Below are positions 43,174 to 45,294 of a stretch of 64,000 nucleotides of DNA, piece after piece. Source of the DNA: Ensifer adhaerens (lineage in GTDB: Bacteria > Pseudomonadota > Alphaproteobacteria > Rhizobiales > Rhizobiaceae); the NCBI RefSeq assembly GCF_013283195.1, contig NZ_JABEKT010000001.1, positions 2,514,509-2,578,508 on the forward strand, given 5' to 3'. Under the pieces are notes generated by a model that made no database searches, was not told the origin of the DNA, and saw only the letters and a list, made by a program, of their open reading frames with translations. The translations under genes and the position numbers were made by a program. The stretch's first letter is position 1; each line of letters starts with the position of its first letter.

Positions 43174-43518
43174 CTAGGCTGCTGTCCCTGTGAACACGCC
43201 TGGCCTCGTCGGCACGATTTCGACCCCGTGGCGCTCCAGTTCGGGCCCGTGCTCCCGAAAGACCCTGTTCCAGGTCGCCACATCGGCGATTCCGACAAAA
43301 TTCGTCGCGCGTGCCCCGTCTTCGCGCACACGAATCTCGCTGATCAGCCGGCTCTTCCAACACTCGCTCGTGGCCGGGGTATCGGCCAAGAACACGAATG
43401 CGACCACCCGATCAGGGCGGTGAGCAGCAAGGTATGCCAGGAGCGTGTCGGACAGCGCGCGATGGGGCGCATTGATCGTAGCGCAGACCATATTCTCCGC
43501 AAACTCATCGTCCGACAT
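43174..43518 (-). CDS. Hypothetical protein, 114 aa
   Basis: 114-residue protein without a recognised domain (MSDDEFAENMVCATINAP ... HRPDRVVAFVFLADTP ... VATWNRVFREHGPELERHGVEIVPTRPG). It looks like a small soluble alpha/beta protein. The ATG at 43518 has GGAAGGG upstream; the frame is open to 43695. It is convergent with the double winged-helix gene and divergent from the MerR fusion gene. Function unknown. Confidence 0.55.
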   Translation of the reverse strand: MSDDEFAENMVCATINAPHRALSDTLLAYLAAHRPDRVVAFVFLADTPATSECWKSRLISEIRVREDGARATNFVGIADVATWNRVFREHGPELERHGVEIVPTRPGVFTGTAA

Positions 43519-43848
43519 GGCCTTCGCCCTTCCTCTCTTCTGACGAACACGGCGTCGCAGCGAACCTGTGACAGGTTGACCTTTCGCCACAAACACTTTC
43601 CACGGCCGCGCCCGGTTTAGGCAATCGCGGGCTCGGTGAAAGACTTTAGCGGTGCGCGCATCGCTGGGCAAACGCAACCAATATTCAATCGGCATTCGTC
43701 CGTTCGGCTCCGGCCAGTCAGAACCACGGTACCTGCTCTCTCAACTCCAAGCTTGCCGGGCGCAGGTGCCGTTATTTTTCAGCGGACAGTTGACCCGTCC
43801 CCGGGGCCAGGACCGATAAAGATCGCGGTGAACAGGAAGAGGTGATTC
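43519..43848. other. 330-bp divergent intergenic region
   Basis: Lies between the 114-residue hypothetical gene and the MerR fusion gene. The only clear element is the MerR-type promoter near its right end. A T-rich tract (GTTATTTTTC, 43771-43780) precedes it. The open frames on the minus strand are extensions of the neighbouring gene and have no ribosome site of their own. Confidence 0.4.
43790..43820 (+). promoter_or_regulatory. MerR-type promoter with 19-bp spacer
   Basis: -35 TTGACC (43790-43795), a 19-bp spacer (43796-43814) and -10 GATAAA (43815-43820). The spacer holds a dyad, GTCC-N9-GGAC (43797-43813 region), with a CCCCGGGG core. This is the promoter layout expected for a MerR protein that regulates its own gene, which starts 28 bp downstream. 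Confidence 0.65.
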
Positions 43849-44889
43849 GTGAGTGACTCCACGTGTTTCTTGACTGCAACCGAGGCCGCCAAGCGCCTTG
43901 GCGTCTCGATCAAGGCATTACGCCTCTATGAGCAACATGGGTTGATCGCGCCTGTGCGGACTTCGGCAGGATGGCGGACCTATGGCCCGGTGCAAATGGC
44001 GCGCGCGGGCGAGATCGCAGCCCTGCGCTCGCTCGGCCTCACCCTGGCACAGATCCGACGCGTGCTCGATGGCGGTGCGCGCGAGCTTGGCCCTGCCCTG
44101 GCGCAGCAGCAGGGGCTGCTGGAGGCGCGGGCGCAGGATCTGCATGAGACAGTCGCAAAGGTCCGGCGTCTCCGCCGAGATCTGGCAAGCGATGCGGACA
44201 ATGCGCCCGACTTGCAGCAACTGGTACAAGGGGAGCCGTCATCCGGCAATCCCGCGGTCGCCTTCAACCTGCCATGGCCATGGGGCGGTGAGGCGTTCAG
44301 CCTTCAGACGATCCGTCCGCTGACCTACATCATCGGACCGCTCGGCAGCGGCAAGACACGGTTGGCCAAAGCCATTGCCACGGCCCTGCCCGGCGCGGTC
44401 TTCGTGGGCCTCGATCGGCTGGAGGAGATAAACGGCGAGGCCACTCTCCGGCGGCTCGAGGTCGAACCTCGGCTAAAATCACGCATAGACACCGTTCTTG
44501 CGCGACTACTGGACGACGGCGCCGTCGCATCGCCACCTTTGACTGCTTTGTTGGTGGCATTGGAAGGGGATGCCGAGGCATTCGTAGTCGATATGGTCGA
44601 ACAGGGCCTCGATGCCGCTTCGCAAACCGCCTTGCTAAAGCACCTGCGTCACCACCGTACCGACCGGCGGCCGATCCTCATGTTGACCCGATCCAATGCC
44701 GTCCTTGACCTGGCCGCTCTCGGACCAGAAGAAACCGTCATTCTGTGCCCGGCCAACCATAGCCCGCCGACCGAGGTCGCGCCCTATCCGGGTGCCCCAG
44801 GCTACGAGACCGTCGCCAACTGCCTGGCGTCGCCGGAGGTCCGTGCGCGGACGCAAGGTGTCATCGCCTGGCGGCCGGAAGTGGCCTGA
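43849..44889 (+). CDS. MerR regulator fused to a P-loop ATPase domain
   Basis: 346-residue fusion. Residues ~8-75 form a MerR helix-turn-helix (LTATEAAKRLGVSIKALRLYEQHGLI), followed by the dimerisation helix to ~125. Residues ~140-340 contain a P-loop, GPLGSGKTR (Walker A, residues 164-172), and a small ATPase/kinase-like region with LMLTRSNAVLDL resembling a Walker B strand. I know no characterised regulator of this layout. It starts with GTG at 43849, with AGGAAGAGG upstream, behind its own MerR-type promoter. Its target and ligand are unknown. Confidence 0.8.
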   Translation: MSDSTCFLTATEAAKRLGVSIKALRLYEQHGLIAPVRTSAGWRTYGPVQMARAGEIAALRSLGLTLAQIRRVLDGGARELGPALAQQQGLLEARAQDLHETVAKVRRLRRDLASDADNAPDLQQLVQGEPSSGNPAVAFNLPWPWGGEAFSLQTIRPLTYIIGPLGSGKTRLAKAIATALPGAVFVGLDRLEEINGEATLRRLEVEPRLKSRIDTVLARLLDDGAVASPPLTALLVALEGDAEAFVVDMVEQGLDAASQTALLKHLRHHRTDRRPILMLTRSNAVLDLAALGPEETVILCPANHSPPTEVAPYPGAPGYETVANCLASPEVRARTQGVIAWRPEVA

Positions 44890-44895
44890 AGGCTT

Positions 44896-45294
44896 TTACG
44901 GTCGCCCTGCGTCAAACTTCGGCAGCTCGTCGTCGATGCCATAGAAATCGCCCTTGTCGGCGCAATAGATGTGATAGCCGGGTTTGAGGTCCGTCGGCTT
45001 TTCAAAGGCGCCGGCCATGATCGACGTGTAGTCGAGCCCATCGGCTTTCCAGAACAGGGCCGACCCGCAATGACGGCAGAAGCCCCGTTGAGCGCCGTCG
45101 CTCGAGCGATACCAGGTGACATCCTCAGCGCCTTCCAGCTCCAGGTCGCGATCCAGCACATTGGTCGCGGCATAATAGAGGCCCGTCTGCTTGCGGCATT
45201 GCGTGCAATGGCAAAAGATCAGCTCGCGTAGCTCTCCCCGCGTCTTGAAGCGCACCGCAGTGCAGAGACAGCTGCCGCTGTGGATGTCCGACAT
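44896..45294 (-). CDS. GFA-family (glutathione-dependent formaldehyde-activating-like) protein
   Basis: 132-residue zinc protein of the GFA/CENP-V family. The zinc ligands are visible as CLCTAV, CHCTQCRK and FCRHCGSAL. Despite the family name, most members are not proven to act on formaldehyde, and the role should be taken as unknown. It is convergent with the MerR fusion gene, with only six bases between them. Confidence 0.85.
   Translation of the reverse strand: MSDIHSGSCLCTAVRFKTRGELRELIFCHCTQCRKQTGLYYAATNVLDRDLELEGAEDVTWYRSSDGAQRGFCRHCGSALFWKADGLDYTSIMAGAFEKPTDLKPGYHIYCADKGDFYGIDDELPKFDAGRP

Follow-up and report, generated by a model that had tools for sequence, protein, structure and literature searches.

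A MerR regulator of Ensifer adhaerens joined to a predicted degenerate ABC-type domain, and its probable control of its own promoter

What does a MerR regulator sense, and which promoter does it control, when its C-terminal half resembles a nucleotide-binding protein? The question is raised by a gene in a 64,000-nucleotide stretch of Ensifer adhaerens DNA (contig NZ_JABEKT010000001.1, positions 2,514,509 to 2,578,508; hereafter the window, in whose coordinates positions are given). The gene (43849..44889, plus strand, as are all of its features below) starts with GTG and encodes a protein of 346 amino acids, here called the fusion regulator. A first-pass annotation, made from the letters alone, had described it as a MerR helix-turn-helix joined to a P-loop domain of about 200 residues, and had proposed that nucleotide binding or hydrolysis is coupled to its action on DNA. 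The explanation that we favor, with moderate confidence, is an autoregulated MerR one-component switch that has a degenerate ABC-type (ATP-binding cassette) sensor and whose main target is itself.

The two halves of the protein

We found that the open reading frame (ORF) is a real gene, because 32 other family members align with the window's protein at 44-88% identity and because the ratio of nonsynonymous to synonymous substitution rates (dN/dS) for the whole gene is low (0.22 and 0.24 against two congeners, L009 and L010). The alignment, A4, has 33 rows. It omits six plasmid members, the duplicates L018, L019, L046 and L048, and the fragments L017 and L053, and it keeps two close pairs (L021/L023 and L022/L029); L054 and L056 are one gene. 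By eye, a candidate ribosome binding site, GAAGAGG (43836..43842), lies 6 nt 5' of the GTG, and a gaggtgattc-like context before the start is repeated in many family members.

The N-terminal half is that of a MerR protein. Residues 9-74 (43873..44070) form a winged helix-turn-helix that matches Pfam MerR_1 with an E-value of 5.5e-16 (58.9 bits versus a cut-off of 21.6), and this part of the model matches GlnR, TipAL and MtaN in fold. A long helix at residues 77-114 (44077..44190; DSSP on the model) is presumed, from other MerR structures, to be the antiparallel dimer coil. The genome also has a MerR paralogue (L002:727-1968) that is 48% identical over residues 7-100. Its long C-terminal region had no Pfam match at E 1e-5.

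The C-terminal domain, about 210 amino acids (residues 136-346; 44254..44886), was modeled with confidence by AlphaFold (predicted local distance difference test, pLDDT, 91; predicted template modeling score, pTM, 0.87). On the predicted model the fold is that of an ABC-type ATPase, with matches to transporter nucleotide-binding domains (NBDs) and to the heads of SMC (structural maintenance of chromosomes) proteins. The Walker A motif is intact, as had been reported: GPLGSGKTR at residues 163-171 (44335..44361), with G168, K169 and T170 invariant in all 33 members. The Walker B Asp248 is likewise invariant, so that both the Walker A motif and the Walker B Asp of ABC ATPases are present. It opens the stretch DMVEQGLD (residues 248-255; 44590..44613), which ends in the D-loop Asp255 (31/33 members). 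Motif and fold together indicate that the domain likely binds nucleotide.

The residues associated with standard catalysis are missing. The position after the Walker B Asp, which aligns with the catalytic Glu of SMC (DEVEAALD of 3zgx), is Met in 30 members, Thr in two and Tyr in one; none of the 33 has Glu. No member has an SGG signature core in residues 200-247, where an EDGAT-like stretch is aligned instead. TRS (residues 280-282; 44686..44694) stands where ABC and SMC proteins have the switch His, and Thr280, which aligns with the SMC His, is Thr in 32 members, Ala in one and His in none. The lone His within residues 276-284 is at residue 283 of L047. In the approximate region of the Q-loop (residues 183-192) two of 33 members have Gln, and R190 is invariant there.

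Six other residues are invariant in all 33 members: Arg190, Glu251, Arg281, Cys300, Asn303 and Cys325. Cys300 (in CPANH) and Cys325 belong to a family-specific tail (44746..44823). Two natural short forms (L054:1138-2043 and L055:1498-2409) are without most of residues 193-226, a helical insert, but retain both Walker motifs and the cysteines of the tail.

Could the domain still be an active ATPase, with hydrolysis cycles that use Glu251 or another base? The invariance of E251, R190 and R281 is what such an enzyme might show. Set against it are the absence from all 33 members of Glu or Gln at the canonical position and of SGG, and the missing switch His, and we consider this explanation improbable. 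A switch that only binds is likelier than an ATPase because the catalytic Glu, the signature and the switch His are absent throughout the alignment. The domain appears to be one for nucleotide binding in which standard catalysis has been lost, and ordinary ATP hydrolysis by it is not likely. Of the proposals in the first-pass annotation, a coupling of nucleotide binding to DNA binding is plausible, and a coupling to hydrolysis is not supported.

The promoter and its operator

The promoter also had the proposed MerR-type layout. It consists of a -35 element TTGACC (43790..43795), a 19-bp spacer (43796..43814) that contains a dyad with the core CCCCGGGG (43799-43806), and a -10 element GATAAA (43815..43820), read from the window sequence and the aligned upstream regions. 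The layout is no coincidence. A script that looked for TTGAC[CT] plus 25 bases (TTGAC is thus invariant by construction) was run on 39 upstream regions, counting that of the window. The pattern, and with it the layout, was found in 37 of them. One of the two misses, L014, had its start set too far downstream, so that its element begins right where the region was cut; the other, L016, by eye reads TTGCAC-19-CATAAA. The commonest letters of the family element are TTGACC-CGGCCCCTGGGGCCGCC(C/T)C-GATAAG. The -10 boxes of L015, L042 and L052 are weak.

The spacer is conserved beyond its surroundings. Among 33 upstream regions (528 pairs; four near-duplicates and the two regions without a script match were dropped), mean pairwise identity was 0.709 in the spacer, which the script left free save that the best dyad was picked among candidates, versus 0.291 upstream of the element (31 bp) and 0.377 downstream of it (25 bp). 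The entire 31-bp element, anchored -35 included, gave 0.743. With within-genus pairs removed, the values were 0.705 (spacer), 0.740 (element), 0.288 (before) and 0.368 (after).

MerR operators are palindromes inside 19- or 20-bp spacers, as defined in PMC1526738, and the dyad within the 19-bp spacer here fits that layout. About spacer position 8, five of ten positions pair in the window (family range 4-8), and the window's dyad is weaker than that of the family consensus. The column table of the operator was made from the 34 of 37 sites with a dyad score of 5 or more. When 43600-45000 was scanned for sigma-70 promoters with spacers of 16-18 bp, there was no match. In L044, upstream of 2526, two additional partial copies of the left half-site lie directly 5' of the operator, a small tandem duplication.

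Of the 27 carrier genomes, all but G045, G072, G167, G217 and G268 were searched for a 30-base operator pattern with at most 3 mismatches, 22 in all. Seventeen of the 22 had exactly one match, and by comparison of coordinates it was always just 5' of the fusion gene. A reversed control pattern had no match in any of the 22. Because the sole match in these 17 genomes precedes the fusion gene, that gene itself would be the most parsimonious target of the operator, with cross-talk possible. The locus had earlier been described as having no obvious target. Its neighbors are indeed uninformative; the operator points to the regulator's own gene.

In the switch that we favor, a MerR dimer would occupy the dyad in the 19-bp spacer of the promoter from which it is itself expressed. 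A nucleotide (probably ATP) would bind the sensor, alone or together with a second ligand recognized by the tail (CPANH...C). Binding would alter the packing of the two sensor domains on the coiled coil, and the change in packing would switch the promoter from closed to untwisted and transcribed, or back. Little or no hydrolysis would take place, and the regulator would act on its own. A more specific version, in which the two ABC-type heads of each MerR dimer close on ATP in the manner of SMC heads, pull on the coiled coil and so untwist the promoter, so that head closure driven by nucleotide directly gates transcription, with the regulator's own gene as sole target, seems to us quite unlikely.

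Contrary evidence and other possible targets

Several results weigh against the autoregulated switch. Some concern the fold. In Foldseek, TM-scores over the query were moderate, at 0.44-0.57 among the matches listed. Sequence profiles do not single out ABC proteins. No Pfam family passed its cut-off in the C-terminal domain of the window's protein, where AAA matches were sub-threshold, and among 24 members, with E-values up to 0.1 allowed, AAA models matched more often than ABC models (AAA_16, AAA_33 and AAA_22 in 23 members, SMC_N in 16 and ABC_tran in 4). The best PDB matches of a whole-domain profile were other P-loop proteins and unrelated proteins, and in the profile comparison V-ATPase subunit H scored close to the SMC matches. 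The case for nucleotide binding is itself drawn from motif and fold. In addition, the full-length model has a pTM of 0.62, too low to fix the packing of the domains. The sub-threshold AAA matches might also be taken to mean that the P-loop is a chance resemblance or the fusion a functionless joining of frames. This is refuted by conservation over the full length across genera and two classes, by the low dN/dS and by the confident fold, and we give it practically no credence.

Other results concern the target. In five of the 22 carrier genomes there was no match at all, and even the site of the fusion gene was missed; these sites are more divergent. With a limit of 3 mismatches, weaker targets could be missed elsewhere too. 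In the window's own genome, moreover, a similar operator lies 5' of another MerR gene, L003. A looser search for the operator core (1 mismatch), run on the 17 genomes matched before, found it as TTGACCTCGCCCCAGGGGC at G000:C1:592257.

Might the regulator then control other genes as well, such as L003, through operators that differ too much to be caught by the pattern? The looser search gave 27 sites, the 17 before the fusion genes and 10 others. One type of extra site recurs, TTGACCT(C/T)GCCCC(A/T)GGGGC, in the window's genome and in four congeners (G013, G015, G003 and G005), where it is the second match. This speaks for further targets. The reversed control gave 13 matches, however, so most of the 10 extra sites are at chance level, and the four genomes outside the genus that have extra sites share none of them. 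The site in the window's genome is also followed directly by a MerR gene of its own, and its outer dyad is different. We regard further targets of this kind as unlikely.

The L003 gene (L003:1018-1983; G000:C1 near 592250) has a 19-bp-spacer operator of its own, TTGACC-TCGCCCCAGGGGCGAGCCC-CACAGT, closely resembling the one before the fusion gene. Directly upstream, on the same strand, is an ORF that by eye resembles a major facilitator superfamily efflux protein, and cross-regulation is possible. The L003 protein matches MerR alone in Pfam.

Co-transcription is the last point. In the window the fusion gene is very probably monocistronic, because the downstream gene, of the GFA family (44896-45294, minus strand), is convergent with it and the two ends are six bases apart, as first noted. 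Of 14 family loci run through a heuristic gene caller, 9 had the nearest downstream gene on the opposite strand and 5 had it on the same strand. Two annotated plasmids (L035 and L036) also have a same-strand gene downstream, at distances of 170 and 128 bp. In such loci the next gene could be co-transcribed, which counts against a gene that controls only itself.

Family, neighborhood and known systems

We compared 39 members of the family, the window's included, from Alpha- and Betaproteobacteria. The distribution is patchy: 5 of 16 genomes of the genus, 10 of 61 relatives, 23 of 297 genomes of the order (fragments included) and 3 of 398 of the phylum, each count including the window's own genome. 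The order and phylum counts may be too low because seven candidates per genome were scored. Twelve of 13 loci from the genome-contig search were full-length relatives, and seven plasmid records from Burkholderia, Variovorax and Caballeronia, large plasmids among them, had at least 80% of the fusion gene. The family thus spans many genera, and in that sense the earlier caution that it might be known and widespread was partly borne out; a defined role for it was not found.

Other origins for the domain and other routes to a function were considered and rejected. Profile A3, a search for stand-alone relatives of the domain, matched in 3 of 398 phylum genomes, the window's own among them and with seven candidates scored in each, frames of 340-347 amino acids, which fit fused genes (the third, G558, by frame length). 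PADLOC matches to defense systems were weak and local, the best being mad1 (E 9.8e-7) on the helix-turn-helix. Phages had no full-length match (two records matched in the helix-turn-helix only), and viral contigs had no match.

No neighbor is common to the 19 loci compared, and sharing across genera was limited to scattered ORF types in few of them, so function could not be read from the neighbors. ORFs resembling ABC-transporter ATPases occur in 6 of the 19 loci at differing positions, and a pyridoxal phosphate (PLP)-aminotransferase/GntR-like ORF in 3. L020 and L028 share two ORFs that look UbiA-like and PurD-like by eye. Other shared neighbors come from the three loci of the window's genus, from close pairs or from antisense frames, and groups of 11 and 5 loci overlap the fusion gene itself. 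The nearest neighbors belong to unrelated Pfam families (FAD oxidase, RpiR, AAA_33 kinase-like, Rrf2, HlyD, TetR, deaminase and tannase), in a run on 8 of the 28 listed neighbor proteins plus two MerR paralogues. In the window, a divergent hypothetical ORF of 173 amino acids (43174-43695, starting at 43695) lies upstream and has no Pfam match. It is present in 3 of 16 genus genomes, each time adjoining the fusion gene, and has no match in the other two carriers of the genus.

A solitary, patchily spread gene that is also carried by large plasmids and has its operator directed at itself would suit a resistance protein. The C-terminal domain might then be the output as well, binding or sequestering a toxic compound while the MerR half raises the protein's own dose. 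In PMC10189885 AlbA is described as a resistance protein that sequesters albicidin, binds the AlbA promoter region, which has a MerR-type layout, and activates transcription. The invariant C300, N303 and C325 of the conserved tail could make a ligand site. A domain that only sequesters would have no need, on the other hand, of a Walker A Lys and a Walker B Asp that never vary, and this alternative seems to us somewhat unlikely.

For the switch, our literature search, which reached few subscription papers, met no description of a MerR-ABC-type fusion, and the combination would be a new form of MerR regulation. With an ABC-type sensor, promoter untwisting would come under the control of a nucleotide, and the switch may be an unrecognized kind of energy or drug sensor. 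Its self-directed operator makes the system compact and amenable to testing, and the module is a candidate for use in biosensors of ATP or ligands.

Several known systems share parts of this arrangement. Transporter NBDs and SMC/cohesin heads have in common with the fusion domain the fold, the Walker A motif, the Walker B Asp and, for nearly all members, the D-loop Asp. The fusion domain differs from them in its catalytic losses and in being joined to MerR. CFTR NBD1 also has a degenerate ABC site; unlike CFTR, the fusion protein is a soluble regulator without a membrane partner. NadR likewise joins a helix-turn-helix repressor to a P-loop nucleotide-binding domain, although both its helix-turn-helix and its P-loop class differ from those of the fusion regulator.

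Among MerR operators, those of CueR and HmrR also have a dyad in a 19-bp spacer, and the CueR dyad begins in the -35 box, like that of the fusion gene. In contrast, the fusion gene's operator core is CCCC-N-GGGG, and no metal-resistance gene was recognized adjoining it. The CueR dyad is given as ACCTTCCC-(5)-TGGAAGGT in PMC1526738.

As to sensors, those of known MerR regulators are for metals, redox or drugs. AlbA, TipAL and BmrR share with the fusion regulator the MerR helix-turn-helix and dimer helix, and the dyad in a long spacer; their C-terminal domains are of the TipAS or GyrI-like kind, whereas that of the fusion regulator is ABC-type. TipAL is self-controlled and raises its own dose as a compound-binding MerR protein. 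AlbA binds its own promoter region (PMC10189885), like the self-control proposed here. MerR proteins such as AlbA, which also binds its compound and activates transcription, are the best functional counterparts of the fusion regulator.
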